64,000 nt of DNA from Tenacibaculum aquimarinum (GTDB taxonomy: Bacteria; Bacteroidota; Bacteroidia; Flavobacteriales; Flavobacteriaceae), in NCBI RefSeq assembly GCF_022478115.1, contig NZ_JAKGSC010000002.1, positions 310,001 to 374,000 of the forward strand, written 5' to 3'. The translations under genes and the position numbers were made by a program. The stretch's first letter is position 1. Each line of letters opens with the position of its first letter. The notes beneath the pieces are model-generated. The model made no database searches, had not been told where the DNA came from, and saw nothing but the letters and a program-made list of their open reading frames with translations. This document shows, piece by piece, positions 3,143 through 25,427 of the stretch.

Positions 3143-4360
3143 TTAAGCTTTTTTAAGTTTGTTTAATGAAAAACTAGTTGCTTCATTTGATGAGTAACTT
3201 TCTTTTTTTACATTTTTTTTGTTTCCTCTATAAAACCATGCAATTTGTCCTAATTGTCCCACAATTTTAACAGAATCCTTCATTGATAATTTAGAACCAT
3301 CTGCATGAATCCATCTTTTTAAAGGCTGCTCACAAAGAATTTCTTTTGCTTTTTTTAATCCAAAATGCAATGTTATTCTTCTAAAAATTTCAACATCAAA
3401 AATCCATTGAGTTACAAACTTATCAGCAAACGAAATTTCAATTACATCTTTATGAAAGATTTTAGCTCCACATTGTGTGTCTTTAAAATCCATCTTTAAA
3501 ATTTTTCTGATAATAAAATTAATCGTTAAACTAATAATTTTTCTTGCAGATTCTTTTGTAATATTTGCTCCCATTCTACTAATTCTAGAACCACTAACAA
3601 TTTTATAATTAGAATTTTCTATGGTAGAAACTAAATCGTCGAAATCTGTTAAATCAGTTGATAAATCTGCATCTAAAAAACCTATATAATCTAGATCTTC
3701 TTTCTTAGCCATAAATAACATTCCTTGCCTAACAGCTTCTGCTTTACCTCCATTTTTTTCACAGTCGTAAACTGTTATAAAATCTTCTCTACCTTTTCTA
3801 AGGTTATTTAAAACTTCTAAAGTATTGTCCTTACTTCCATCATTAACAAAACATAAATGATATCCTGAATTTTTAACAATAAAATCTGTAAACTCATTAC
3901 TTAATAGCCTTTCTTCCTCATTATAACAAGGAATAACAACACCAACACATCTTTGTTGAATAATTACACCATTATTTGTTATTACATTATTTGCTATAAC
4001 AGGTGCTCCAATTAATCTTTTTACTCTTGCACAAACTTCTACTAAACTTAGAGGTTTTTTCATGTAATCATTAATTCCTAAATCGAAACCTTCAGTAATC
4101 ATATTATCATCAGTATTACCAGATAAAACCATAATTGGTGTTGATGAGTTTTTAGTTTTACGAATATGCTTTACTACTTCCATTCCAGAAACTAATGGCA
4201 TATTAATATCTACAATTACCAAATCTGGTTTAAAAGACTCATAAGATTCAATTCCTTTTGTTGCGTTTGTTTCAGTAAGAACTTCATACCCTAATTCTTT
4301 TAATCTATTTTCTAAAGGAATTAAAACTAATTTTTGGTCGTCTATTGCTAATACTTTCAT
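3143..4360 (-). CDS. Response-regulator receiver fused to a DPM1-like GT2 glycosyltransferase
   Basis: The 405-residue protein joins two complete domains. Residues 1-118 are a receiver with all key positions: D7 and D8 (AIDDQK), phospho-acceptor D51 (IVDINMP), S80 (VLSGNT) and K101 (YMKKP). Residues 138-370 are a family 2 glycosyltransferase of the dolichyl-phosphate mannose synthase type: VVIPCYNEEERL, FVNDGSKDNT, KNGGKAEAVRQGM and the DXD motif in FLDADLSTD (D230, D232). I see no membrane segment. Receivers normally feed a DNA-binding or enzymatic output by phosphorylation, so sugar transfer is likely gated by a phosphorelay. It heads the run REC-GT2 - GT2-like - manA, with a shared-motif promoter upstream. 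The acceptor is unknown; a polyprenyl phosphate or a protein or glycan is possible. Confidence 0.92.
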   Translation of the reverse strand: MKVLAIDDQKLVLIPLENRLKELGYEVLTETNATKGIESYESFKPDLVIVDINMPLVSGMEVVKHIRKTKNSSTPIMVLSGNTDDNMITEGFDLGINDYMKKPLSLVEVCARVKRLIGAPVIANNVITNNGVIIQQRCVGVVIPCYNEEERLLSNEFTDFIVKNSGYHLCFVNDGSKDNTLEVLNNLRKGREDFITVYDCEKNGGKAEAVRQGMLFMAKKEDLDYIGFLDADLSTDLTDFDDLVSTIENSNYKIVSGSRISRMGANITKESARKIISLTINFIIRKILKMDFKDTQCGAKIFHKDVIEISFADKFVTQWIFDVEIFRRITLHFGLKKAKEILCEQPLKRWIHADGSKLSMKDSVKIVGQLGQIAWFYRGNKKNVKKESYSSNEATSFSLNKLKKA

Positions 4361-4600
4361 AATATTTATTTTTATTGCTTAATTACACTTCAAAAGTAGT
4401 TTTGTTTTAAGGGTAAAAAGGGCTTTAAAGCTTTAAAAGGAGTTTTGTATAGACGAATGGTAGTTAACTGAAGTTAAATAAGATTTTACATATAGTTTAT
4501 ACGATATATCTAATTATAAGTGTACATATAAGAATGAAATAAAAATATAGTAAATACGTAATTACAGTAATCCTGCTTTCAGTATTACTGTAATTAAGTT
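4244..4600. repeat. Duplicated divergent promoter segment, copy A
   Basis: This stretch holds the first 39 codons of the REC-GT2 gene (minus strand), its upstream region, and a decayed copy of the start of the GT-C-like gene (plus strand). It is paralogous to 5457-5820. Shared blocks include the 13-mer TATAGACGAATGG, ATAGTTTA, and a match between 4534-4600 and the true gene start at 5755. In copy A the start reads ATG AAA TAA, so a stop has replaced the third codon. The remainder, 4601-4922, shows no gene that I can recognise and may be decayed coding sequence. Confidence 0.75.
4391..4460 (-). promoter_or_regulatory. Candidate promoter and LytTR-type site upstream of REC-GT2
   Basis: Read on the minus strand, CCATTCGTCTATA (4448-4460) lies 50 bp upstream of TACTTTTG (4391-4398), which fits the flavobacterial -7 box TAnnTTTG about 30 bp before the start codon. 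The same 13-mer occurs at 5662-5674 and close relatives occur before four other genes of this locus at the same distance. A second half-site 21-22 bp away is weak here. Confidence 0.55.
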
Positions 4601-4922: not shown

Positions 4923-5573
4923 TTATATTTTTACAAAAATATTTGTGTAATACCAACGACCGTTACTGTTTTGTCTTGCTATAACATCAAAGTAATTGTA
5001 ATCTCCTTCTATGTTTTTTCTATGTCCATCACTAGCTATCCAAGCATTAACAACACTTTCTGCTGTAATAAAACCAGAGGCAACATTTTCTGCAGCACCA
5101 ATAATACTTGCTTGTTCTACTAGATATTCTGAGCGTTTTTGAAATTCATCATGAGAGATTTCATCTTTCTCAATCATATACAAAGTATGGATAAGTGCAG
5201 GAACTTTTATAATGTTTAATTCCTTTATTAAAGGTAAATTTTTAGATACTCTATAATCATTTATATGATCTAAAATTTCTATTTCTATTGGACGAGCTTC
5301 AATAAAGGTAGTATTTATAATTTGCTCTATAGTTATTTCTTCTTCTTCTTCAACAATAACTTCATCATTAGATGAGCAAGATGTAATAAAAAAAAATAGA
5401 CATAGGATAATAGATAAGAAACTTCGTTTTACTTTTTTCAATCCAAAAAGAACTGTTGATTCATGTCCTTTTGTTAAGTTTAATTCTTTAAGAGCTCTAT
5501 ACTCTAATTCTTTTAATTTGTTTTCTTGAGGAATTGAGACAAATTTTTGGTCATTGATGGCTAGTACATTCAT
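4923..5573 (-). CDS. CAP/SCP-domain lipoprotein with a captured receiver N-terminus
   Basis: The frame encodes 216 residues. Residues 45-66 form a lipoprotein signal (KRSFLSIILCLFFFITSC) with the lipobox Cys at 66, followed by an acidic linker. Residues 97-216 show CAP/SCP features: IEILDHINDYRVSKNLP, SHDEFQKR, AAENVASGF and VVNAWIASDGHRKNI. Residues 1-39 (MNVLAINDQKFVSIPQENKL...) are a degenerate copy of the start of the REC-GT2 protein, not part of a CAP protein. A TTG at 5441 (codon 45) would give a normal 172-residue lipoprotein and is the more likely functional start, with the ATG at 5573 as a fossil or a coupled start. CAP proteins of bacteria are secreted; roles vary and the role here is unknown. 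Confidence 0.85.
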   Translation of the reverse strand: MNVLAINDQKFVSIPQENKLKELEYRALKELNLTKGHESTVLFGLKKVKRSFLSIILCLFFFITSCSSNDEVIVEEEEEITIEQIINTTFIEARPIEIEILDHINDYRVSKNLPLIKELNIIKVPALIHTLYMIEKDEISHDEFQKRSEYLVEQASIIGAAENVASGFITAESVVNAWIASDGHRKNIEGDYNYFDVIARQNSNGRWYYTNIFVKI

Positions 5574-5820
5574 AATTGTTGATTTTTATTGATTAATTTC
5601 AAGTCAAAATTAATTTTGTTTTGAAGTAAAAAATGAAAAAAACACTCTTCTGGAAGTTTTATATAGACGAATGGAAGTTTACTGATGTTAAATAAAATTT
5701 TGCTCATAGTTTAAAAGATTTATATTTACATTATTATACGTGAGTACATTCTTAATGAAAGAAAAATCTAATAAATACTTAATTACAGCAATACTGCTAG
5801 CAGTAATATTCCATGGGTCT
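5457..5820. repeat. Duplicated divergent promoter segment, copy B
   Basis: Paralogous to 4244-4600. It carries the degenerate receiver start (5457-5573, minus strand), a promoter region and the intact beginning of the GT-C-like gene (plus strand). The similarity covers coding and non-coding parts, so it is a DNA-level duplication and not gene-family resemblance. Insertion or retention of the CAP gene between the copies explains the present order. Confidence 0.75.
5605..5674 (-). promoter_or_regulatory. Candidate promoter and LytTR-type site upstream of the CAP gene (shared with the divergent GT-C gene)
   Basis: On the minus strand CCATTCGTCTATA (5662-5674) lies 50 bp from TAATTTTG (5605-5612), a match to TAnnTTTG. 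The region is also the only upstream region of the plus-strand gene at 5740/5755, so one site could act in both directions. It is a copy of the 4391-4460 element. Confidence 0.5.
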
Positions 5821-10061: not shown

Positions 10062-11569
10062 AAACTAATAAACGAATTCTGAGAGGTGTTTTAATGCTCA
10101 CTTATGTAGTAATAATTAGTATCCTTTTATTCTTAATTAGTGCTGTTTATACCTTTTTAAATACTGGTGCAGACAGAAGTAAAATGTTACATACAGAAGT
10201 GAAAAAAGTTCAACAATATTTACCTAAAGTAACTTGGAAAGATGATGGTAATGCTGGAAGAAAAATAAGTTTACAAAAAATAAATGCAGTAGAAAATGAC
10301 TATTTAGATGCTTGGTATGTAAAACAAATTGCTTACAAAACCAATACACGAGTTGGAATAGAAGATTATTTTACAGAAAGTGCTCGAGAAAATATTTATA
10401 ATATTTTAGATTTTAATAAACTTAACAAAATTTCAATAGAATCCACTACCCTACAGCACAATTTAGATATTGAGTTTTTTAGTGAAGATGGTCAGTTAAT
10501 TGTCTTAAAAGACACAAATGCATTAGAATTTAAAAAAGTATTTAAAGATGATAAATTAATTTTACAAACTACAGAGGTTTCAACTTATAGATATGTTTTA
10601 TTACTTGAAGACGGTTTTTGGCGCATAAGGCATGCTGTAAAAGAGTCTTCAGAAAAATTTAAAAATGAATTAACAAAAACCTCAATTGCTTATTTAGATA
10701 TAAAAGGTATAAACTATTATCCACAAGCAACTCCTTGGAATATGTATGGAGATGAATTTGATATTAATATTATTGATAAAGATTTTAAAATAATTAAAGA
10801 ATCTGGCTTAAATTCTATAAGAATATTTGTGCCTTATGAAGATTTTGGTAAGGCTAATGTAAAGTTGGATAAATTAGAAAAACTAAAAAAACTTTTAGAT
10901 ACTGCAGAAAAAGAAAATTTAAAAGTAGTAGTTACATTATTTGATTTTTATGGGAATTATGATATTTTAGATTGGACTTTAAACCATAGACATGCAGAAA
11001 AAATTGTAGAAAAGTTTAAAGATCATGAAGCTATTTTAGCTTGGGATGTTAAAAACGAACCGAATTTAGATTTTGATTCTAGAGGAAAAGAAAACGTAAC
11101 AGCTTGGTTAGATTTTATGATTAATTTAATTAAATCAATTGATACAAAACATCCTGTTACCATTGGTTGGTCTAACACAAAAAGTGCTACTATTTTAAAA
11201 GATAAAGTAGATGTTGTTTCTTTTCATTATTACGAAGATTTAGAAAATTTTGAAAGTGAATATTTAGCTTTAAAAGATACTATAAAAGACAAACCAATCA
11301 TTTTACAAGAATTCGGAGTTTCTTCTTATGGAGGTTTGTGGAGACCTTTTGCGAGTTCTAATGAAGAGCAAGCAAATTATTATAAAGAAATACAAAAAGT
11401 CCTGACAAAGAATTCAATTCCTTTTATGTCATGGACTTTATATGATTTTGATAAAATACCAAAAGAAGTCTTAGGGAGACTTCCTTGGCGAACAAATCCT
11501 CAGAAAAAATTTGGATTTATTACTAGTGATGGAATTAAAAAACCTTCATATAAACATATTTCTAAATAA
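10055..11569 (+). CDS. Membrane-anchored GH5-like glycosidase with an N-terminal NTF2-like domain
   Basis: The 504-residue protein has one N-terminal helix (about 11-33), an NTF2-like region (about 75-205, ending EDGFWRIRHAVKES) and a TIM-barrel domain from about 218. The barrel has GINYYPQATPW, the acid/base Glu E335 in AWDVKNEPNLD and the nucleophile Glu E419 in ILQEFGVSS, the clan GH-A arrangement of GH5/GH39 enzymes. It should face the periplasm. In synthase-type exopolysaccharide loci such hydrolases (for example BcsZ, PslG) trim the nascent chain. Here it closes the GT-C - Ig-like - GH run and overlaps the convergent GT4 gene by 8 bp. The family number is my best guess between GH5 and GH39. 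Confidence 0.85.
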   Translation: MVKTNKRILRGVLMLTYVVIISILLFLISAVYTFLNTGADRSKMLHTEVKKVQQYLPKVTWKDDGNAGRKISLQKINAVENDYLDAWYVKQIAYKTNTRVGIEDYFTESARENIYNILDFNKLNKISIESTTLQHNLDIEFFSEDGQLIVLKDTNALEFKKVFKDDKLILQTTEVSTYRYVLLLEDGFWRIRHAVKESSEKFKNELTKTSIAYLDIKGINYYPQATPWNMYGDEFDINIIDKDFKIIKESGLNSIRIFVPYEDFGKANVKLDKLEKLKKLLDTAEKENLKVVVTLFDFYGNYDILDWTLNHRHAEKIVEKFKDHEAILAWDVKNEPNLDFDSRGKENVTAWLDFMINLIKSIDTKHPVTIGWSNTKSATILKDKVDVVSFHYYEDLENFESEYLALKDTIKDKPIILQEFGVSSYGGLWRPFASSNEEQANYYKEIQKVLTKNSIPFMSWTLYDFDKIPKEVLGRLPWRTNPQKKFGFITSDGIKKPSYKHISK

Positions 11570-12767
11570 CTGTAGCTTTTGAAAAATTATTTTGTTTTGC
11601 ACTTATCATTTCAAATTCTTCTAAATACATATTTGTAATCCTTTCCATTGGAAATGCTGTAGCTGCTTTATAATTTGCATCTCCAAGCTGAACTCTATAT
11701 GTATTATTAGTAACTATTGCCTCAATTGCATCTGCTAAACTTGAAGTGCTTTCTGGCTCAAAAAATTCACCTCTATATCCTTCATCCTCAATTAATGTTG
11801 CTAAATCTCCTAAATTAGGCATTACAACTGCTTTTCCATAACTTCCTGCTTGGTGCAAAACTCCAGAACTACCAGTTGTTGATGTATAAGGAAATACTAC
11901 TACTGCACTTTCATTAAACAATGTTTCTACCTGATTTTCTTCTACATAACCTGTAAAAGTTATTTGAGATACGTATTTATATCTTTCTTTTACACTTTCT
12001 AAATAACCAGGTACATTTGGGTTATCAGTTCCTGCAATTACAATCTCTAAATCTAAACCAGAAGATTTTCTTACCTTCTCTACAGCTTCTATCATCGATT
12101 CTACTTTTTTATAAGTTCCAAATTTTCCAAATGTCATTACTTTTAATGGGCCTTTTGGTAATTGATGTGATGGTTTTTCAGGTATTTCAAACGTTCCATG
12201 AGGAATCATTTTTACATTATCTACCTTATATTTTTCTTGTAGAGTAGTCACATATTTATCCATAGTAACCGCAACTAAATCAGCCTTTAAAATCAATTTA
12301 GTTAAACTAGTTCCTATAAAATTATATACTTTTTGAGCAATTTTATTTGACGTAAATCCTGCACTTTCTAAATCTACTTGTTCTAAAATATTATGTAATA
12401 ACACAATTGTAGGAATTTGTTTTATTTTACAAATTAGAGGCAAAGTTAAACCTAAAGCTGCGGCAACTTTCTTATCTCCAAACTTCATGAATTGTAAGTT
12501 GAATAAAACTGCATCCGGTTTTGTTTTATTGATTGCTCTTGTAACATTAATAATGTTTGCATAACTATTAAACTTCCAACATTCTTTAACTGTAATTTTA
12601 CATCCGTTTTCTGTAAAATTAATGTCTTTTCCTTCTGGAGTATGGTCTGTTAATAAAACTAATTCAGTTACTTTTTCACTTTGTCTAAAGCTTTTTACTA
12701 AATGATATGCATATTCATTTAAAGTTACTTTACTTGGTGGATATGCTGTTACAATTGCTAATTTCAT
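11562..12767 (-). CDS. GT4 family glycosyltransferase
   Basis: The 401-residue protein is a GT-B fold retaining glycosyltransferase: N-terminal MKLAIVTAYPPSKVTLNEYA, linker MIPHGT near residue 190, then LKVMTFGKFGTYKKVESMIEAV and FTGYVEENQVETLFNESAVVVFPYTSTTGSSGVLHQAGSYGKAVV. The last stretch is the acceptor and sugar-nucleotide phosphate region; the usual E-x7-E pattern is replaced by a serine/glycine-rich loop (TTGSSGVLHQA). No membrane segment. It is transcribed alone behind its own candidate LytTR-type promoter and probably adds a sugar to the lipid-linked unit or polymer of the locus. Donor sugar not predictable. Confidence 0.88.
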   Translation of the reverse strand: MKLAIVTAYPPSKVTLNEYAYHLVKSFRQSEKVTELVLLTDHTPEGKDINFTENGCKITVKECWKFNSYANIINVTRAINKTKPDAVLFNLQFMKFGDKKVAAALGLTLPLICKIKQIPTIVLLHNILEQVDLESAGFTSNKIAQKVYNFIGTSLTKLILKADLVAVTMDKYVTTLQEKYKVDNVKMIPHGTFEIPEKPSHQLPKGPLKVMTFGKFGTYKKVESMIEAVEKVRKSSGLDLEIVIAGTDNPNVPGYLESVKERYKYVSQITFTGYVEENQVETLFNESAVVVFPYTSTTGSSGVLHQAGSYGKAVVMPNLGDLATLIEDEGYRGEFFEPESTSSLADAIEAIVTNNTYRVQLGDANYKAATAFPMERITNMYLEEFEMISAKQNNFSKATVI

Positions 12768-12792: not shown

Positions 12793-12862
12793 CAAATTTC
12801 GGACTATATAAATATTTAAATTGCTAGTTGAGGTTGAAATACAATTAAGTGTAGATTAATGG
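12793..12862 (-). promoter_or_regulatory. Candidate LytTR-type direct repeat upstream of the GT4 gene
   Basis: Plus-strand reading shows GTTGAAATACAATT at 12833 and GATTAATGGTAT at 12854, a 21-bp period. The right unit ends 95 bp before the GT4 start codon. A one-mismatch -7 box (GAAATTTG on the minus strand, 12793-12800) lies 54 bp from the right unit, as in the other sites of the locus. Confidence 0.4.
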
Positions 12863-12871
12863 TATAAAGGT

Positions 12872-16928: not shown

Positions 16929-19520
16929 TTAATTAATTATTAGTTTAATTGTTTTATAATTTTGAGTTCCTACTATTTTAAAAAAATACAACCCTGAATT
17001 CAAATTATTGTTTATAAAAGTTATTTTATTTAAACCTATTTTTGTCATATGATTATTTATTTCTATTAATCTACCTAACTGATCATAAACTATAAATTTT
17101 ATTTTTTCTGATGTGTTAGATGTAAATTCTATATTTGTAGAACTTGACATTGGGTTTGGTGTTGCTTTAATACTATTTAACTCTTTTTCAAAAGTATTTA
17201 CATTTAAAGCTTCACTATTCGAAAATCTTAAGTCATATAAATTCATTTCTTTTGTTTCAATTTGTCCATTTTCAGCTTCCATTGTAAATACAATTGTTAC
17301 AATATCATCTAATATTAAATCTGTTCCAATAGTAGAGGTAAAACTTGAAAATGGAATTGAAAAATCTTGAAAATTATCTGTTAATATAATTGTAGTTTTA
17401 AATTGTTCTTCCCAATTACTTATACTTTTTTTAACAAAAGTAATTTCAAGTTTTCCAGTACCTTTTGCTTGTAATTTTAAGTTATTATAGTCTATTAAAT
17501 TTACTGGTTTAAATCTTGGTGTAAGGGCTCTGTAAGCAGCAAAATAGGTGTCTGTTGTTGCTTGTAATTTCACATTTCTTTCAATAGGAAAGTCTCCATA
17601 ATCAAAAGTATAATCATTTTGTGAAACCATATACTCGTTAACTGTTGTATTAGTTTGTGAATCATCAACACCCCAAGGTCCATCAGACATAAATAAATCG
17701 TCTGGTATGTTTACCCCATCACCAATTCTAAAACCAACATCAAACAAATGCCCTGTTGGTACTGTTATATCTGTAATATAATTTTGGTTTAAACTAATAT
17801 TAGACGAAGAGTAGTTAAAATCGCTAGTTTCGGTTACTCTATATCCAGAATCGTAAGTAACATCATTAGTAGCATTTGTATTTATAATTTGTAAATCTAA
17901 AGCTCCATTAATATATTTTCCTTTTCTAACAAAAACAGTTGGAGGAGCAGATAATTGATAACTAGATATTGTTTTCTCAGTGTTTAATAAGTATAATACT
18001 TCCTGTGCTAAACTATATAAATCGTCTATAGAATCTGACCAGATTTGAAAATTGTAAAAAGTTTCATTCTCTTGGTATAAATCTAAGTTCCAGTGACTTT
18101 CTATTGCAAAATTAGTGTCGTTATTTTCTGCTTTGGCCGATAGGCTTAAAACATATTCAAAAGAACCATCTGCATTTTTAATAATTGCTTTTATAAAAGG
18201 TTGATCGTTAATTTCTATTGTAGATACTGTTATTAATTCTGCTCCTAATAATCTATCACATATGTATTTAGTGTGTTCATATACTCCGTTTTCTGTTTTT
18301 ATTGCTAAAACAGAAGCAATAGAAGCATCATTTCTCATGTAATCTACAGAGTACACTTCTGTAGCATTTGTAATATTAACTAAATCTGAAGGTGTAGAGT
18401 CTACTACGTAATCTTCATTAATTGTTGTTAAAGGCACAAAGTCTTGTAATTGAAAGCCTGTTGTAGAATTTCTTTGGGTCTGTTGTGTTTCTTTTGTTAC
18501 TCGTTTTGCTGTTAACTGATTGAATTTATAACTTTTTTTAGCACGATTAAAATTACGCTTATTAATTGCTTCAGATAATCTACCATTACTTTCTAAACCA
18601 CCATCCTTAGCTGTAGAAGGAGCTGTAACTACTGCGCAATTTCCAAAACCAGAGCATGAAGGGTCTTCACAATCTATTAAACCATCTCCATCGTCATCGA
18701 TACCGTTATCACAAATCTCTTGCGCAACAGGTGCTGTTGGACAACGTGCTCCATCGTTACTAGCACTAGATGGACCAAAAGCAAATAAATTAGAATCTAT
18801 TGTTGATGTTGGACTTAAATCTTGTACACTTTGAATAACATAAATAGTTCCTGTTTGATTTGCTGATACATAAAAACGTCCATCTGCATCAAAATAAACC
18901 GCACCATAGGTGTAGTTAAGTCCAGATAAAACAGGTACTTCCCCTAGAGTTTCTACAACACTTGTTGTTGGGTTAATACGATACAAAATATTACTATTTT
19001 TTGCTACAGCATATAAATTTCCGTCTACTGCATTAAAAGCCCAATCGTGAATACTAATATTTTGAGATAGTGTTTCAGAAGATAAGTATTGTAAATAGGT
19101 TGGTGAGTCAGGGTTTAAGTCTACTTTGTAATAAGCTGTTCCTCCTGCTTTAAAATAATAAATACCATCTGGGCTAATATCTCCGACATATTTATTACCA
19201 GTAGTTAATTCTGGAAGTGTAAAAGTTGTTGTTTGAAAATTTTTACCAATTCTTACAATAGATTTAGATGGAGCACTTAAATAACCCCAAATATAACCAT
19301 CTGTAGGATTATAAGCAGTAGCATTTATATTTCCTGATGTAATATCTGAAGCTGCTAGGTAAGAATTACCAGATGCTAAATCAACTGCATAAACATCATT
19401 ATATTGAAATAAATATGCACTATAATCACAATTAAAAGGTGTTGTCTGAGCGTAATTTGTAAAAGTAATAACTAATAAAGTAAATCTTAAAATAAGAGAT
19501 TTAAAAGTAATTTTTTTCAT
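16929..19520 (-). CDS. Type IX-secreted multidomain surface protein
   Basis: The 863-residue protein has a signal peptide (ends TFTNYAQ), a beta-propeller-like region (about 30-250, with DGRFYVSANQTGTIYVI), a Ca-binding-like Asp/Gly segment near 270 (NGIDDDGDGLIDCEDPSC), a linker, a low-similarity middle and a CBM-like beta domain (about 640-760, KLQAKGTGKLEITFV). It ends in a Por secretion sorting domain: IKATPNPMSSSTNIEF, VYDQLGRLIE and LNSGLYFFKI. It should cross the outer membrane by type IX secretion and attach to the surface or the polymer. Its promoter carries the locus motif as a clear direct repeat, so it probably belongs to the same regulon, perhaps as a matrix protein. Confidence 0.85.
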   Translation of the reverse strand: MKKITFKSLILRFTLLVITFTNYAQTTPFNCDYSAYLFQYNDVYAVDLASGNSYLAASDITSGNINATAYNPTDGYIWGYLSAPSKSIVRIGKNFQTTTFTLPELTTGNKYVGDISPDGIYYFKAGGTAYYKVDLNPDSPTYLQYLSSETLSQNISIHDWAFNAVDGNLYAVAKNSNILYRINPTTSVVETLGEVPVLSGLNYTYGAVYFDADGRFYVSANQTGTIYVIQSVQDLSPTSTIDSNLFAFGPSSASNDGARCPTAPVAQEICDNGIDDDGDGLIDCEDPSCSGFGNCAVVTAPSTAKDGGLESNGRLSEAINKRNFNRAKKSYKFNQLTAKRVTKETQQTQRNSTTGFQLQDFVPLTTINEDYVVDSTPSDLVNITNATEVYSVDYMRNDASIASVLAIKTENGVYEHTKYICDRLLGAELITVSTIEINDQPFIKAIIKNADGSFEYVLSLSAKAENNDTNFAIESHWNLDLYQENETFYNFQIWSDSIDDLYSLAQEVLYLLNTEKTISSYQLSAPPTVFVRKGKYINGALDLQIINTNATNDVTYDSGYRVTETSDFNYSSSNISLNQNYITDITVPTGHLFDVGFRIGDGVNIPDDLFMSDGPWGVDDSQTNTTVNEYMVSQNDYTFDYGDFPIERNVKLQATTDTYFAAYRALTPRFKPVNLIDYNNLKLQAKGTGKLEITFVKKSISNWEEQFKTTIILTDNFQDFSIPFSSFTSTIGTDLILDDIVTIVFTMEAENGQIETKEMNLYDLRFSNSEALNVNTFEKELNSIKATPNPMSSSTNIEFTSNTSEKIKFIVYDQLGRLIEINNHMTKIGLNKITFINNNLNSGLYFFKIVGTQNYKTIKLIIN

Positions 19521-19541: not shown

Positions 19542-19633
19542 CAAAAATATACACTAAATGAAGCTTATGTACTTTTTTTCGTTCTCCTCAAATTAACTAT
19601 AGACGAAATGTACATTTTGTATCGATGAAAATT
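19542..19633 (-). promoter_or_regulatory. Candidate promoter with 22-bp-period LytTR-type repeat
   Basis: TAGACGAAAT (G at 19602) and TCGATGAAAA (G at 19624) repeat with a 22-bp period upstream of the 863-residue gene. The minus-strand -7 box TATTTTTG (19542-19549) lies 53 bp from the nearer unit. The far unit touches the stop of the LytTR regulator gene. Confidence 0.55.
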
Positions 19634-20342
19634 ATAATAAATCTAATCTTTTCATTAATTCTGGCCTTTTTGATCTACTTACAGGTATAACATCTCTTTT
19701 TATTAAAACACTATTATCTTCAATATCAATAATTTTTTTTACATTAATAATGTAAGAACGGTGTACTTTAAGGAATAATGAATCTGGTAATTTTTCTTCT
19801 ATTTTTTTTAAAGTAGAATGTACAGTATAATCTTTATCTTCAGTTTTTATTTTTATATAATCTCCTTTAGCTTCAATTAAATAGATGCTAGGTAAATCAA
19901 TTTTAATTAAGCGTCTATCAATATTTACATAAAAATCATTATCTATTTCTTTAGAAGTGGAAGTATTTGAAGAAGCATTGGTCTTAGAAACTTCTTTTTT
20001 TTCTGCTTTATCTATTGCTTTTTTAAAACGAGGTAATTCTATTGGTTTTAATAAGTAGTCAACTATAAAGTCATATTCAAAAGCTTCAATAGCAAATTTT
20101 GGATCTGAAGTTGTTAATATAATCTTTGGTGGATTTTTTAGACTTCTAATAAAGTCTAAACCATTAAAATCAGGCATATGAATGTCAAGAAAAATAAGAT
20201 CTATCTCATTCTCATTCAAAAACTTAATAGCTTGTATTGCATTCGAAAACTCATCAACAATACTTAAAGAACTAATTTCGTTGCATAGAGTTTTAATAAT
20301 AACTCTTGCCATTTTTTCATCATCAACAATAATACAATTCAT
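19632..20342 (-). CDS. LytTR-family response regulator
   Basis: The 236-residue protein has a receiver (residues 1-118: acidic pair D7/D8 in IVDDEK, phospho-acceptor D53 in IFLDIHMP, Thr in ILTTSD, Lys in LLKPIE), a Ser/Thr-rich linker (about 120-132) and a C-terminal LytTR DNA-binding domain (DRRLIKIDLPSIYLIEAKGDYIKI, then FLKVHRSYIINVKKI and VIPVSRSKRPEL). LytTR proteins bind direct repeats about two helical turns apart. It is the last gene of a seven-gene operon that supplies sensors, kinases and an HPt. Six promoter regions of the neighbouring polysaccharide locus carry fitting repeats, so it is the likely regulator of that locus and of its own operon. Confidence 0.95.
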   Translation of the reverse strand: MNCIIVDDEKMARVIIKTLCNEISSLSIVDEFSNAIQAIKFLNENEIDLIFLDIHMPDFNGLDFIRSLKNPPKIILTTSDPKFAIEAFEYDFIVDYLLKPIELPRFKKAIDKAEKKEVSKTNASSNTSTSKEIDNDFYVNIDRRLIKIDLPSIYLIEAKGDYIKIKTEDKDYTVHSTLKKIEEKLPDSLFLKVHRSYIINVKKIIDIEDNSVLIKRDVIPVSRSKRPELMKRLDLL

Positions 20343-20347
20343 AAAAC

Positions 20348-20665
20348 TTATATAGTGTCTATATAGTCTGAAATTGCTTTTAAAATTTTATCAAAATCTT
20401 CCTTCCCTTTTAAATTTAGTTCTCTAAGATTATGCTCAAACTTATTGGCTATTTCATAACTTTTTTCAAGTCCCAAAATACTAATTTTATGTTTAATTTT
20501 ATGAACATTTTCTTCAATTTTTTTGTACTCCTTATTTTCTAGCCTATTATAGTAGTCTTTTTTCTCTTCTGGAAACTCAGTTTTTATTACATCTATTAAT
20601 TCATTTTTAATAGATTGATCTCCTCTTGCTAACTGATTTATATATTCTAAATTAGGTTTTTCCAT
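20348..20665 (-). CDS. Stand-alone HPt phosphotransfer protein
   Basis: The 105-residue helical protein carries EENVHKIKHKISILGL, the HPt signature in which the first His (VHKIK) accepts phosphate from a receiver Asp. The following EIANKFEHNLRE helix fits the four-helix bundle. It lies 5 bp before the LytTR regulator and 1 bp after the second kinase. Since neither kinase in the operon carries its own receiver, the stand-alone receiver at 24616-25029 is the natural intermediate, giving kinase to receiver to HPt to LytTR or REC-GT2. That order is inference. Confidence 0.9.
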   Translation of the reverse strand: MEKPNLEYINQLARGDQSIKNELIDVIKTEFPEEKKDYYNRLENKEYKKIEENVHKIKHKISILGLEKSYEIANKFEHNLRELNLKGKEDFDKILKAISDYIDTI

Positions 20666-20666
20666 C

Positions 20667-21710
20667 TTACTTTTTTATGCTAAAATAAAAAGTTGAACCT
20701 TCATTTAATGTAGATTGTAAATAAATTTCACCTTTATATAATTCAACTATTTTTTTTACAATAGATAATCCAATTCCAGAAGATTGATAATTATCTTCTA
20801 ACTTTTGAAATGCTACAAATATTTTATCGAAATATTTTTTCTCAATCCCTTTACCATTATCCTTTATATAGAACTTCCAATAGTTACTTTCTTCTGTAAA
20901 TCCTATTTCAATACTAATCTGTTTTTTATCATTAAACTTAATAGCGTTGTTTATTAAATGAGAGAATAGTTGTTCTAACCTATAGTTATCTCCTTTAATT
21001 ATTGGTAGTTTATTAGGAATTATAAAAGAAACATTTTCTGTTTGATCTAAGTTATTTATAATATTATTTACTAGGATGTTTAAACTTACATCATATAACT
21101 CTTTTTCAATTTTATCAATTGTAGAATATTGTAAAATCCCTTTTACAAGTGTATCCATTTTTTCTACATTATCTCTAATAAGCTCCAAAGTTTCTTTTCC
21201 AGAAGCATCTAAAACCTCAGAATAATCATCTATAACCCATGTTGTTAAAGCATCTATGCTTTGGAGAGGTGATTTTAAATCGTGAGAAACCATATGAGCA
21301 TAATCATTTAATTCTTGATTTTGGCGTTCTAAACTTTCTACTAATTTATCTTTCTGTTTATTTATTTTTATGATTTCTTTGGTTTGGTTATCAATAAAAT
21401 CAACTAATTTTAATGAATCTGAACTCTCTAATAATTGGTCTTCTTCTAGGTCATAAAATTTTAAAGTGTCTATTAGGTTTTTAAGTTTATCTATTATTTT
21501 TTTTTGTGAATCGGACTCTTCCTTTAATTTTTGATTGGCAGTAAAAAGTTCTTCAGAACTAATGGTTGTTGCTCTTTGCAACATTGTAAATTGCTCTTCG
21601 GAAGTAGTATAAGATCTATTTATAGCATCTAAAAAATTATCCAATTTACTATTAGATTGAAATTCTTTTGGCAGAAATTTTCTTATTTGTCTTTTTAATA
21701 AAGAATTCAT
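20667..21710 (-). CDS. Soluble sensor histidine kinase, partner of the FIST protein
   Basis: The 347-residue protein lacks membrane segments. Residues 1-130 are mostly coiled coil. The HisKA H-box YAHMVSHDLKSPLQSID follows, then the HATPase domain with N-box QLFSHLINNAIKFND, G1 IKDNGKGIEKKYFDKIF and G2 SSGIGLSIVKKIVELYKG. There is no recognisable sensor domain, so input should come from a partner. The FIST gene lies directly upstream with a one-base stop/start overlap, which matches NosP-kinase pairs known in other phyla, where the NO-bound sensor inhibits the kinase. Confidence 0.93.
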   Translation of the reverse strand: MNSLLKRQIRKFLPKEFQSNSKLDNFLDAINRSYTTSEEQFTMLQRATTISSEELFTANQKLKEESDSQKKIIDKLKNLIDTLKFYDLEEDQLLESSDSLKLVDFIDNQTKEIIKINKQKDKLVESLERQNQELNDYAHMVSHDLKSPLQSIDALTTWVIDDYSEVLDASGKETLELIRDNVEKMDTLVKGILQYSTIDKIEKELYDVSLNILVNNIINNLDQTENVSFIIPNKLPIIKGDNYRLEQLFSHLINNAIKFNDKKQISIEIGFTEESNYWKFYIKDNGKGIEKKYFDKIFVAFQKLEDNYQSSGIGLSIVKKIVELYKGEIYLQSTLNEGSTFYFSIKK

Positions 21711-22855
21711 TATTCGCTTATTAATGTAACTGTCATTGTTTGATTATGTAATTGGCAGTTATTTTGTCCTATAAACGGTGCTATTTCTCCATAAGAATAT
21801 AGCCCAGTAATTGTAGTTGAACTCCCTACTACTTCCATAACTTCTTCTACCTCCTCTTCTACTCTTTGATCTAAAACTAATTTTCTACCAATACAGCTTA
21901 CCAAAATGGCCAATTCTGCTTTATTTTTTCTAGTTTCAGATGCGTTAATAGCTGCTTTTTCTGCAGCATTTACAATATTATCTACATTAGTCATCATTAA
22001 TTGTACTTTAGAATTTTCTAAAATATCACCTGCTAAAATCATTGAATTTTCTTCTTCATCAATATTTAAAATAGTTCTAACAATAGAATTATTATCTTCT
22101 ACAGACTTTACATTTAAAGGGTATAAAAGTGCTGCTCCGGGTAATTCTTTTGCTTTATCACCTAAATACTTTTTATATAAATCTAATGCAGGTATATTGT
22201 CTAACTCATATAAAATATTTCCTTTAGATTTTGTTACTGTTCTTTCTGGCCCAAAAGGAGTCCAACCTCCATTAATAGAAAATGAAATCTCTAAAGAATC
22301 TCCGTATAAACCAATTGCAACAATCTCTCCTGCTTTTGGGTTTTCATTATAAGAAGAAATAGTTTTCTCAAATCTTGCAGCATCACCACATAAAGCTCCT
22401 GTAATTAAAAGATTATCATGGGTCGCTGCATTCATCCCTTTAGTTAGTTGACTTCCATTTATAAAACTTCCTTCAGAAAGTACAAAAACGTGTTTTAAAC
22501 CCTCTTGAGGTAATTCATTTATTAAATTTTCACCCACTTTAAAACTATCAATTTCAATACTAGATTTACCCTCAAGTACATTTGTTGTTTTGATAATGAA
22601 TTTACTTTTTTCAAATTCTATTGCAGTTATTGTAATACTATCATCATTGACAGATTGTGTAGAAATATCTCCTGATGCAGAACCAAAAACAATATGACCA
22701 TCTTTAAAAAGATTTTTGATATCATTATAAATAGTATCACTTTCTAACATATATCTATTTCCAAAAACTAAAACTAAAGGTTCTTTTAAATCTATTTTTT
22801 CTGATAAATATTCCCAATCAGTATTAATATTTTTTCTTAATTGTACAGTTTTCAT
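21710..22855 (-). CDS. FIST-domain sensor protein (NosP-like)
   Basis: The 381-residue soluble protein fits the FIST_N/FIST_C architecture: LVLVFGNRYMLE and GSASGDISTQSV at the N side, FINGSQLTKGM and NLLITGALCGDAARF in the middle, and the C-terminal signature GLYSYGEIAPF with CQLHNQTMTVTLI. FIST proteins are sensory; the NosP subgroup binds heme and nitric oxide and controls an adjacent kinase in biofilm pathways. Whether this one binds heme cannot be seen from sequence by eye. Its place between two kinases, in the same operon as an H-NOX sensor, supports the NosP reading. It overlaps the second kinase gene by one base. Confidence 0.9.
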   Translation of the reverse strand: MKTVQLRKNINTDWEYLSEKIDLKEPLVLVFGNRYMLESDTIYNDIKNLFKDGHIVFGSASGDISTQSVNDDSITITAIEFEKSKFIIKTTNVLEGKSSIEIDSFKVGENLINELPQEGLKHVFVLSEGSFINGSQLTKGMNAATHDNLLITGALCGDAARFEKTISSYNENPKAGEIVAIGLYGDSLEISFSINGGWTPFGPERTVTKSKGNILYELDNIPALDLYKKYLGDKAKELPGAALLYPLNVKSVEDNNSIVRTILNIDEEENSMILAGDILENSKVQLMMTNVDNIVNAAEKAAINASETRKNKAELAILVSCIGRKLVLDQRVEEEVEEVMEVVGSSTTITGLYSYGEIAPFIGQNNCQLHNQTMTVTLISE

Positions 22856-22856
22856 T

Positions 22857-24074
22857 TTATTTTATTTTTATTGTAAAGAAAAATGTTGTCCCTTTATTAG
22901 GCTCACTTTCTAACCAAATATTACCATCATATAACTCAATTATTTTTTTAACAATTGATAGACCTATTCCTGTAGAGTCTTCTCTTTTATTTAAAGAGTG
23001 AAAGACTTTAAAAATTTTATCATGGTATTTTTTCTCTATTCCAATACCATTATCTTTAATAGAAAATTGGTGATATTCTTGATTTTCTTTGTAATCTATT
23101 TCTATAATACCAATTTCTTTATCACAAAACTTAATAGCATTGCTTAAAAAATTTTGAAATACTTGCTGAAACTTTGTTGAATCACCTTTTAAAGTAGGTA
23201 ACTTATTTAATTTATTTACAGAAATATGTTTAGGAATGAATAAAAACTCTTTTAAATCATCAACTATTTTATTTAAATCTACTTCAGTTTCATTTCCAAT
23301 ATTTGCACCGGCACTAGAGTACTCTAATACATTAGAGATTAGGGTTTCCATGGTTTCTATAGTAGTTTCTATAAGATCAAAATTCTGAATAGTTAATTCA
23401 TCAAAATTATCTTTATTATCAGACTTTATCCATGAAATTAAGGCATCGATATTTCTTAAAGGAGATTTTAAATCGTGAGAAACAATATGTGCATATTCAT
23501 ACAACTCTTCATTTCTTTTTTCTAACTCTTTTAGTATTTTTTCTTTTTGTTCTTCTAAAGACTTAATAAAAGTTATATCTCTAATTATTCCTTGAGCTGC
23601 AATTGGTTTGTTTTCTTTATCATAAACAATAGTTGCATTTATTAGCAACCATTTTACATCTCCTTTTTTGGTATAAATTCTTGCTGTGTAATTATTAAAA
23701 GCACCCTCTTCATAAAGTTTTTTAAAGGCTTCTCTAGTATATTCTATATCATCTTTATAAACTATCTCAGCAACATTAAACCTTTCTTTTTCGATATCAT
23801 AGCCAAAAAAATCTATAGCAACATCATTCATCCTTAATACATTACCCCACAAATCCATTACTAGATAAGCATCATTAATGTTTTCGAAAATTCCTTTTAA
23901 TGTTGATGATTTCTCATCTAAAAGATCATTTAATTTTAAATTGGAAGTTTTTAATTCTTGAGATATAGCATATAATTCTCTTGACTTGTCTTCAAGAATT
24001 TTCTCTGCAGATTTTCTTGCAGCTTTTTCACGTTTAAGAGCACGTTGTAATATTGCTATTTGATCTTGGCTCAT
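22857..24074 (-). CDS. PAS-containing soluble histidine kinase, partner of the H-NOX protein
   Basis: The 405-residue protein begins with a coiled coil (residues 5-60, rich in K/E: LQRALKREKAARKSAEKIL), then a PAS domain with PAC motif (about 62-170, IFENINDAYLVMDLWGNVLRMN ... GIIRDIT). The kinase core follows: H-box YAHIVSHDLKSPLRNID, N-box QVFQNFLSNAIKFCD, G1 IKDNGIGIEKKYHDKIF and G2 STGIGLSIVKKIIELYDG. No membrane helix. The N-terminal coiled coil is like that of kinases linked to H-NOX genes. Its start overlaps the H-NOX stop by one base. It probably reports H-NOX state, with PAS giving a second input. Confidence 0.94.
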   Translation of the reverse strand: MSQDQIAILQRALKREKAARKSAEKILEDKSRELYAISQELKTSNLKLNDLLDEKSSTLKGIFENINDAYLVMDLWGNVLRMNDVAIDFFGYDIEKERFNVAEIVYKDDIEYTREAFKKLYEEGAFNNYTARIYTKKGDVKWLLINATIVYDKENKPIAAQGIIRDITFIKSLEEQKEKILKELEKRNEELYEYAHIVSHDLKSPLRNIDALISWIKSDNKDNFDELTIQNFDLIETTIETMETLISNVLEYSSAGANIGNETEVDLNKIVDDLKEFLFIPKHISVNKLNKLPTLKGDSTKFQQVFQNFLSNAIKFCDKEIGIIEIDYKENQEYHQFSIKDNGIGIEKKYHDKIFKVFHSLNKREDSTGIGLSIVKKIIELYDGNIWLESEPNKGTTFFFTIKIK

Positions 24075-24613
24075 TAATTCTTATTAACAATAAACCTAAC
24101 TTCTGTACCGTCTTCTTTTATTTTTTCTAAAACAATAGATGCTTTTGAATTAAAATGCTCAAAAGTTTTATTCATTAAACCTAAACCAAAATGATGCATC
24201 GCTCTACTAGATTTATAAACCATTATTATAGAGTTTTCTGTTTTTTCTTCTATTACAAAAGTAGGTAACTCAGCATCTGGATATATTTTTTGTACTTCTA
24301 CATGAATATGATTTTCTATCGAAGCTAACATCTCTATTGGATCTTTATATGTAGCTAAAAGACCTGGATAACTTGATTCAATTACTGAGAAAAAATGCTC
24401 TGCGTAAACTAAAAGTAAATTATCTGTAGAAATACCTGTATTAGTACTTAAATTAGTTACTAATTGTAGCATTTCAGAAAAACTATATGTACCAATTGCT
24501 GTGTAAATACCTTCTGACTCTAATTCTGATTGTAAAATGATCTTATCTACCATTTCTAATCCAAATTTATCTTCTACTAGGTCTAAAAACTCAGTAAATA
24601 CAATACCTTTCAT
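24074..24613 (-). CDS. H-NOX (heme-nitric oxide binding) sensor protein
   Basis: The 179-residue length is that of stand-alone H-NOX proteins. The start MKGIVFTEFLDLVEDKFG is the family signature. The proximal heme His is in ENHIHVEVQKIYPDAELPTF (H102 or H104; the one before VEV by analogy), and the propionate-binding Y-x-S-x-R motif is Y133-S135-R137 (YKSSR). H-NOX proteins of facultative and aerobic bacteria bind NO selectively and regulate an adjacent kinase or cyclase. Here the PAS kinase follows with a one-base overlap. It is the most secure evidence that the operon responds to nitric oxide. Confidence 0.95.
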   Translation of the reverse strand: MKGIVFTEFLDLVEDKFGLEMVDKIILQSELESEGIYTAIGTYSFSEMLQLVTNLSTNTGISTDNLLLVYAEHFFSVIESSYPGLLATYKDPIEMLASIENHIHVEVQKIYPDAELPTFVIEEKTENSIIMVYKSSRAMHHFGLGLMNKTFEHFNSKASIVLEKIKEDGTEVRFIVNKN

Positions 24614-24615
24614 AT

Positions 24616-25029
24616 TTAATATTTTTTTAATTCATTAATACTCCAATAAGATAAAACATTTTCTATTTTTTTAACATAATCATCATACTTTAAAGGTTTT
24701 AAAATATAACCTGAAACGCCTATTTCAAAGCATTTTTCTAAGTCTTTCTGATTATCTGAAGTTGTTAAAATAACTGTTGGAATATGCTTTAAATCATCAT
24801 CTTTTTTTAATATAGTTAGAAATTCAATACCACTTATTTTTGGCATGTTTAAATCTAATAAAATTAAATCAGGAAATTTACTTTTATCTTCTAAAATTTT
24901 TAAAGCTTCTTCTCCGTTTTTAGCCTCATGTATTGTATGATCTAATTTTAATAATGAAATTGTTCTTTTCATTTTCATTATTTCAATTAAATTATCTTCA
25001 ATTAATAAGATGTTTATTTTTTTTTCCAA
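24616..25029 (-). CDS. Single-domain response regulator (CheY/Rcp1-like)
   Basis: The 137-residue protein is only a receiver: E11/D12 in LLIEDN, phospho-acceptor D59 in ILLDLNMPKISG, Thr pair in VILTTSD and Lys in ILKPLKY. There is no output domain, so it must pass phosphate on or act by binding. It is the first gene of the operon, 2 bp before H-NOX. With two kinases lacking receivers and a separate HPt downstream, it is the expected intermediate of a four-step phosphorelay. It could instead be a phosphate sink. Confidence 0.93.
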   Translation of the reverse strand: MEKKINILLIEDNLIEIMKMKRTISLLKLDHTIHEAKNGEEALKILEDKSKFPDLILLDLNMPKISGIEFLTILKKDDDLKHIPTVILTTSDNQKDLEKCFEIGVSGYILKPLKYDDYVKKIENVLSYWSINELKKY

Positions 25030-25056: not shown

Positions 25057-25151
25057 TAAAAGTAGTTTATTTTTTAAATAATAATAATTTACACTAGTTT
25101 AATTACATCTTTTCTATAGATGAAATGCAATTAAGTGTAGACGAATGGAAT
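25057..25151 (-). promoter_or_regulatory. Candidate promoter with 21-bp-period LytTR-type repeat before the NO/phosphorelay operon
   Basis: TAGATGAAATGCAATT (G at 25119) and TAGACGAATGGAATTT (G at 25140) are two near-identical units with a 21-bp period. The minus-strand box TACTTTTA (25057-25064, one mismatch to TAnnTTTG) lies 55 bp from the nearer unit. This is the best repeat pair of the locus and suggests autoregulation. Confidence 0.6.
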
Positions 25152-25259: not shown

Positions 25260-25427
25260 TTATGAACCAAGTTGTTCAAGTTTCTTCATAACCTCCTCAG
25301 CCTCAAAAACTTTTTGATCACTTAACTTTCTATTTTTAGTAGATAAATTATGACTTTCTTTTAATAATTTAGAATACTGTGCTTGCAGTTTTTCTTTTTC
25401 TGATTTCTTTTTGAATAATCCGAACAT
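25260..25427 (-). CDS. Lacal_2735-type small protein
   Basis: A 55-residue frame from ATG at 25427 to TAA at 25260: MFGLFKKKSEKEKLQAQYSK, then KLLKESHNLS..., ending in EVMKKLEQLGS. The MFGLFKKKSEKEKL start followed by a charged helix is that of a small conserved flavobacterial family annotated as Lacal_2735. It has no signal peptide or known catalytic motif and is likely a cytoplasmic coiled-coil helix. Function is unknown. It stands alone between the phosphorelay operon and the divergent dus gene; the rest of 25152-25611 shows nothing else. Confidence 0.8.
   Translation of the reverse strand: MFGLFKKKSEKEKLQAQYSKLLKESHNLSTKNRKLSDQKVFEAEEVMKKLEQLGS

Follow-up and report, generated by a model that had tools for sequence, protein, structure and literature searches.

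How does a flavobacterium that carries two candidate gas sensors in one operon turn their signals into an output? The question is raised by a 64,000-nucleotide (nt) stretch of the Tenacibaculum aquimarinum genome (2.83 Mb, 99.98% complete), hereafter the window. On its minus strand, from 25029 to 19632, seven open reading frames (ORFs) encode a single-domain receiver (REC), an H-NOX protein, a histidine kinase (HK1), a FIST protein, a second kinase (HK2), a histidine phosphotransfer protein (HPt) and a REC-LytTR response regulator (Table 1). A preliminary description of the window had named this domain set and order, and both are borne out by the ORFs and by Pfam. It had also described tightly packed genes with several one-base overlaps; the successive gaps are 2, -1, 1, -1, 1 and 5 bases, so the packing holds, with no gap above 5 bases, but only two overlaps are present. 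As an answer to the question, comparison with relatives makes it somewhat likely, in our judgement, that a split phosphorelay with two inputs regulates transcription of a locus for surface polysaccharide and secreted proteins.

The evidence for the output comes from a sequence that recurs upstream of the operon. The box ACCATTCGTC-GACACTTAA precedes the operon in 146 of 168 distinct promoters. A matrix made from the operon upstream regions converged on ACCATTCGTCGACACTTAAT, found in 155 of 178 promoters at a median of 110 nt before the start codon (the 178 include duplicates, with the window promoter present twice and some genomes in both locus sets; the 168 are distinct sequences). A second copy lies 21 bp to one side or the other in 100 of the 146 distinct box promoters, compared with none at eleven other offsets and four at an offset of 22. 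LytTR proteins, of which AlgR is one, bind direct repeats about 21 bp apart. The core of the box, CCATTCGTC, is one base from the AlgR core consensus, CCGTTCGTC, as given in an excerpt of PMC4064291, and four promoters have the exact AlgR form. Five sites in the window score over 8, all on the minus strand, against one in total across six shuffled windows. Scanning the genome with the consensus at up to two mismatches gave seven matches, five of which lie within 20.7 kb of window sequence, 91 to 120 nt before gene starts. In a family sample of 299 Flavobacteriaceae genomes, the box at one mismatch was found in 69 of the 105 genomes with H-NOX and in 14 of the 194 without, an association that is partly circular because the operon promoters defined the box.

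The remaining window sites precede the genes of a secreted DUF6923 protein with a type IX secretion system (T9SS) tail, a GT4 glycosyltransferase, a CAP-domain lipoprotein and a REC-GT2 glycosyltransferase fusion (Table 1), all predicted targets. We surveyed box targets in 207 fetched loci, 20 of them stretches chosen because they hold boxes. There were 426 box promoters, 165 before the operon REC and 51 without an ORF in range. Counted as distinct proteins, the other targets were 73 DUF6923/T9SS homologues, 27 GT4 proteins, 20 STAS-like proteins, 16 copies of an unassigned small protein, 14 CAP-like and 11 REC-containing proteins, and 5 Wzx-, 4 Wzc- and 4 TolC-like proteins (the Wzc-, TolC- and CAP-like labels are our own reading). 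The box-selected stretches contributed 14 of the 27 GT4 targets, 8 of the 11 in the REC group and all eight loci in which a REC-GT2 homologue has a box. Pfam searches with seven chosen targets returned STAS, REC-GT2, GT4, Polysacc_synt, DUF6923 with Por_Secre_tail, OEP and Pribosyltran. In the 107 loci that were not box-selected, 124 sites scored over 9 away from operon promoters, while 12 column-shuffled matrices averaged 5.0 sites and never exceeded 10. Since the box precedes glycan and secreted-protein genes here, and homologues of these genes carry it elsewhere, the relay probably controls the surface-polysaccharide locus. The REC-GT2 receiver, which the preliminary description had listed as a phosphotransfer partner to examine, is now tied to the relay through its own promoter box. 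The STAS-like targets hint at partner switching in the same regulon.

Two minor observations concern these genes. The start of the CAP lipoprotein resembles that of REC-GT2 and has the same box, as if a promoter and 5′ end had been duplicated. A small protein with a box (L301, L303, L306, L307 and others) occurs in 20 distinct copies and was assigned to STAS by Pfam in the one tested.

The domains of a four-step phosphorelay, His, Asp, His and Asp, are all present in the operon. In the window genome the DHp domains of HK1 and HK2 share 44% identity, compared with at most 22% to six other DHps. A tree built from 99 kinase cores puts HK1 with HK2 (95/92, midpoint root) and apart from 16 REC-fused kinases that follow other FIST genes. 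Sequences from complete operons keep the HDLKS acceptor box in 48 of 48 HK1 and 47 of 48 HK2. By these comparisons, HK2 is a paralogue of HK1. A Pfam Hpt search of the genome (E values up to 0.1) matched the operon HPt alone, and its VHKxKHK acceptor motif is conserved in 47 of the 48 complete operons. The LytTR domain is well above its Pfam cut-off (77 against 22.6 bits), and the acceptor Asp of both REC and REC-LytTR can be seen by eye in the window sequences; two further patterns, for the REC Asp (37/48) and the G2 box (0/48, although TGIGL and SGIGL occur in the window kinases), were too narrow and we draw nothing from them. When REC-LytTR was compared with solved structures, the best-matched stretches lay in or near the receiver and none in the LytTR domain among the 60 matches listed. 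Because HK2 is paralogous to HK1 and no second HPt was found in the genome, there is good support for one split relay fed by both kinases, a reading that is probably correct. The dual-sensor His-Asp-His-Asp relay with LytTR output that the preliminary description had proposed for a flavobacterium thus gains support from kinase paralogy, the sole HPt and its conserved acceptor motif.

The operon is not unique to the window genome, and its core recurs across Flavobacteriaceae. H-NOX was found in 105 of the 299 family genomes, FIST in 87 and both in 68. Among 108 fetched H-NOX neighbourhoods, 48 have the full seven-gene order and 34 lack FIST-HK2 but keep REC-HNOX-HK-HPt-LytTR; variant orders, contig ends and one fragment make up the remainder. 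A second set of named loci, the best 80 of 214 relatives and sharing some genomes with the first, gave the full order in 50, the order without FIST-HK2 in 22 and the FIST-HK2 pair in 53; three of these loci end after H-NOX or HK. Named carriers of the full order include Kordia algicida OT-1, several Polaribacter and Tenacibaculum, Lacinutrix, Olleya, Winogradskyella and Psychroserpens. The order is more than chance, because it recurs in the neighbourhoods of relatives, and the FIST-HK2 cassette is optional. At 58 of the 109 H-NOX sites in the family, a FIST gene is present on the same strand within 3 kb. Across 296 genomes sampled from the phylum, H-NOX occurred in 22 and FIST in 70. The two were close together, with coordinates compared by reading, in 8 of the 22, seven from Flavobacteriaceae and one from another family (G448), where REC-HNOX-HK was seen. 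The preliminary description had called for such a survey of gene order and had missed how common the arrangement is, as it had missed the optional cassette and the box with surface-glycan targets inside the same window. Searches of a partial literature collection, in which the AlgR core but not the box was sought as text, found no description of the operon; the section of PMC8738867 on gene neighbourhoods (section 10) reports, for its group 1, that FIST proteins occur close to hnox, and no operon, relay or target is described there.

Among loci that depart from the common plan, L127, from the same genus as the window, has the H-NOX operon without FIST-HK2 and with HPt-LytTR doubled in tandem. 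L040 (G253) has RECx-FIST-HNOX followed by a kinase of 1156 residues, a different arrangement.

Genomes G050 and G002 have a cassette-type FIST-HK2 away from an H-NOX operon that is without the cassette, and their FISTs nest among cassette FISTs in the tree. In three operons without a cassette (L104, L107 and L110), the kinase in the HK1 position groups with HK2, as would follow from loss of the cassette through recombination between the two kinase genes, and we infer such a loss for these loci. Distances between FISTs and between H-NOX proteins are correlated (Spearman 0.62; none of 500 permutations as high), which mainly reflects common inheritance. Cassette FISTs are sister to the FISTs that precede hybrid kinases (98/96). 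Gain of HK2 together with FIST from the hybrid-kinase systems is not favoured by the kinase tree. In the 34 stretches where FIST lies apart from H-NOX, a kinase-REC hybrid follows FIST in 17 and tandem FISTs precede a kinase in ten; one stretch has no adjoining kinase and one is at a contig edge. HK1 itself varies in stepped lengths of about 400, 530, 655, 695 and 785 residues; four longer forms show additional PAS domains, two of them also GAF. In L268, L269, L272 and L276, from genomes without an H-NOX match, four FIST genes in a row precede one kinase.

Several observations weigh against a single relay acting through this box. Another kinase pair in the genome has DHp domains that are 45% identical (one of nine DHps was not extracted), and a longer acceptor pattern, matched by all 48 HK1, was matched by just 34 of the 48 HK2. 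The HPt scores 22.7 bits, 1.9 under the Pfam cut-off of 24.6, and two of the named loci have no detected HPt; its match to the solved HPt 1sr2 is weak (E = 0.033). The four window sites outside the operon promoter are without a 21-bp partner, a reversed control pattern gave 3 genome matches at two mismatches against the real 7, and 36 of the 105 H-NOX genomes have no box at one mismatch while the 14 without H-NOX do. Genome G115 has REC-HK-HPt-LytTR with boxes and without H-NOX; therefore the relay can exist without H-NOX. Some of these points would suit parallel pathways, in which HK1 serves REC, HPt and LytTR, HK2 serves other receivers such as REC-GT2, and the genes lie together through shared demand. 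The lower number of HK2 matches to the longer acceptor pattern fits this, as do the dispensability of FIST-HK2, its location outside the H-NOX operon of G050 and G002, and the greater divergence of HK2, whose median pairwise identity is 0.48 compared with 0.68 for REC or LytTR. We nonetheless think parallel pathways unlikely: HK2 falls within the HK1 kinase family with a DHp like that of HK1, the cassette holds no other receiver, and 57 of the 58 linked sites have FIST on the H-NOX strand and downstream of it. Still less probable, in our view, is that the box belongs to another regulator, for instance another LytTR protein, with the operon merely one of its targets. The box-bearing genomes without H-NOX and the eight LytTR genes of this genome would fit that explanation. 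However, among the fetched stretches of about 3.3 kb around these eight genes, only the operon's holds the box and the other seven have no site over 6; the 21-bp periodicity and AlgR-like core suit a LytTR protein; and G115, the one resolved among the 14, has the same relay and LytTR. As an exception to the partly circular association of box and H-NOX, G172 is helpful like G115: boxes accompany a second locus, REC-LytTR-DUF6923-Wzx-GT4, which is on a different contig from its H-NOX operon, and no LytTR was seen next to that operon. A single split relay acting through the box is the reading that we carry forward.

On the input side, the assignment of H-NOX as a sensor of nitric oxide (NO), made in the preliminary description, is well founded by sequence. 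The window protein is 86% identical to K. algicida H-NOX, and its closest named relative is that of Polaribacter sp. Hel1_85 (94%). It aligns end to end with PDB 6BDD (E = 5e-101), which we take to be the K. algicida H-NOX; the PDB table labels the entry an aldolase. The HNOB domain scores 135.6 bits against a curated cut-off of 25.5. The proximal His and YxSxR are the heme motifs of H-NOX; in the 48 complete operons the former (loose pattern) is present in all and the latter in 46, and the window protein carries HIHVEV and YKSSR. One result sits less easily with NO as signal. Models TIGR02376 (Cu nitrite reductase) and TIGR03652 (RIC), the only two NO-related models searched, had no match in the genome, so that denitrification by the cell itself was rejected as a source and any NO would come from outside or by another route. 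Neither FIST nor H-NOX was matched in PHROGs.

The second input is less clear. FIST_N and FIST_C domains are present (136 and 121 bits), and the predicted model has a mean predicted local distance difference test (pLDDT) score of 88.4. Among the 50 solved matches listed, the best is the FBXO22 FIST, at 9-11% identity and the only FIST there, followed by chorismatase and cyclic-amide-hydrolase folds; this comparison of folds says nothing on heme. Could the protein be a NosP that binds heme and NO, making the operon a pair of NO sensors of different range? Its match to the NCBIfam NosP equivalog is nearly full length, it is 39% identical to Azospirillum FISTs whose genes are followed by those of a PAS kinase and a response regulator, and Vibrio cholerae has both H-NOX and NosP pathways according to the available text of PMC8738867. 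The score of that match, though, is 49.2 bits against a cut-off of 450, and we rejected the NosP label on this score; the 'NosP-type' assignment of the preliminary description is not borne out. HK2 likewise scores 73 against 400 bits on NF041832, the model for NahK/ErcS-type hybrid kinases, and has no receiver. Five plasmid-borne FISTs from other phyla (Azospirillum, Aliiroseovarius, Sulfurovum and Nostoc) score 50-95 bits on the NosP model, which thus spans a narrow group, and a low score therefore leaves heme binding possible. Cassette, hybrid and tandem FISTs all have C321, R324 and E357 without exception, and nearly all have His370; because FISTs of other context share them, they are general FIST residues, none of them NosP-specific. 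In 5 of 110 cassettes (some genomes counted twice; L044, L076, L197, L211 and L221) the FIST is replaced by one that is 18-20% identical and lacks His370. His370 was rejected as a cassette-specific heme ligand, as it is conserved in other FIST groups and absent from the five swapped FISTs. No bacterial FIST structure was found by which to place a heme. Weighing this evidence, we think it somewhat less likely than not that the protein is a NosP; NO sensing by FIST is a guess.

We propose that H-NOX/HK1 and FIST/HK2 would act as two sensor-kinase pairs in a Spo0-like split phosphorelay. Both kinases would load the free REC, from which phosphate would pass to the stand-alone HPt and on to REC-LytTR. 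The LytTR protein would bind AlgR-like boxes, arranged at the operon's own promoter as 21-bp tandem repeats, and would control the operon itself and the neighbouring locus (GT4, REC-GT2, CAP lipoprotein and T9SS protein). By analogy with studied H-NOX/kinase pairs, NO on H-NOX most likely lowers HK1 kinase activity, and this would change surface-glycan expression. We tentatively speculate further that NO sensing is coupled directly to surface-polysaccharide transcription through an AlgR-like LytTR relay without cyclic di-GMP (c-di-GMP), that the relay persists while its sensor modules are exchanged, relocated or lost, and that a box-controlled REC-GT2 lets one HPt also act on polysaccharide synthesis post-translationally. 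The parts are of known kinds; the output box with its surface-glycan targets is new. In these marine flavobacteria the route appears to terminate at a DNA-binding regulator whose operator is visible and whose target list is short, and the output of flavobacterial H-NOX is therefore directly testable. Carriers include K. algicida, the species of a studied H-NOX, and the FIST-HK2 cassette, with its sensor replacements and relocations, offers a natural series for a relay gaining or losing inputs.

The convergent layout has a familiar counterpart in Bacillus Spo0F-Spo0B-Spo0A, where several kinases feed a free receiver, a separate phosphotransferase and a DNA-binding regulator; Spo0B is not a classical HPt, and unlike in the Spo0 relay the gas sensors here are separate proteins and the output is LytTR. 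In the portions of the literature covered, H-NOX and FIST/NosP pathways belong to Proteobacteria, and their targets are mostly c-di-GMP enzymes or quorum-sensing relays. As in the accessible accounts of H-NOX/HnoK and H-NOX/HqsK of Shewanella and Vibrio (PMC8738867, PMC8846402, PMC12329717), H-NOX adjoins a kinase that feeds a phosphotransfer network. There, HqsK has its own receiver, its phosphate reaches the phosphotransfer protein LuxU, and outputs are c-di-GMP enzymes or LuxU/LuxO, whereas here the operon supplies a free REC and HPt, and LytTR forms the output. NosP-NosK/NahK-NosR systems, as excerpted from PMC12570481 and PMC8846402, also have a FIST gene next to a kinase without a recognised sensor domain; unlike them, our FIST falls below the NosP cut-off, HK2 is unfused and of the HK1 family, and the operon has no c-di-GMP domain. 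AlgR of Pseudomonas is likewise an exopolysaccharide-gene regulator, with a core one base different (PMC4064291, in part); it is paired with AlgZ, whereas here an HPt and gas sensors lie upstream and the operon promoter has tandem 21-bp sites. The neighbourhood network of PMC8738867, in the part available, shares with our operon the nearness of FIST to hnox, without an operon, relay or target being described.

Table 1. Positions in the window of the operon genes, boxes and predicted targets.
Feature	Position	Strand	Evidence and remarks
REC, single-domain receiver, Spo0F-like relay position	24616..25029	-	TTG start; Pfam Response_reg 83 bits
H-NOX, predicted heme NO sensor	24074..24613	-	Pfam HNOB 135.6 bits
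HK1, PAS sensor kinase, presumed H-NOX partner	22857..24074	-	Pfam PAS, HisKA, HATPase_c
FIST_N/FIST_C sensor protein, opening gene of optional cassette	21710..22855	-	Pfam FIST 136 and FIST_C 121 bits
HK2, kinase without own REC, presumed FIST partner	20667..21710	-	Pfam HisKA and HATPase_c
HPt phosphotransfer protein	20348..20665	-	Pfam Hpt 22.7 bits; probable acceptor His55 in VHKxKHK
REC-LytTR response regulator, output	19632..20342	-	Pfam LytTR 77 and Response_reg 69 bits
Predicted operator, LytTR/AlgR-like box TCCATTCGTCTACACTTAAT and weaker copy 21 bp on	25109..25149	-	Scores 22.0 and 4.7; first base 120 nt before REC start
Box before DUF6923/T9SS gene	19592..19611	-	Score 12.2; 91 nt off
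Box before GT4 gene	12844..12863	-	Score 12.9; 96 nt off
Box before CAP-domain lipoprotein gene	5656..5675	-	Score 10.4; 102 nt off
Box before REC-GT2	4442..4461	-	Score 16.0; 101 nt off
DUF6923 and Por_Secre_tail secreted protein (863 aa), predicted target	16929..19520	-	Pfam; box upstream
GT4 glycosyltransferase, predicted target	11562..12767	-	Pfam; box upstream
CAP-domain lipoprotein, predicted target	4923..5573	-	Pfam CAP; box upstream
REC-GT2 glycosyltransferase fusion, predicted target, possible second relay receiver	3143..4360	-	Pfam; box upstream

A promoter scan was uninformative, with 47 promoter-like sites against 44.8 in shuffles. Upstream of the operon and past the operator, an ORF of 55 codons (MFGLFKKKSEKEK...) lies at 25260-25427 on the minus strand.

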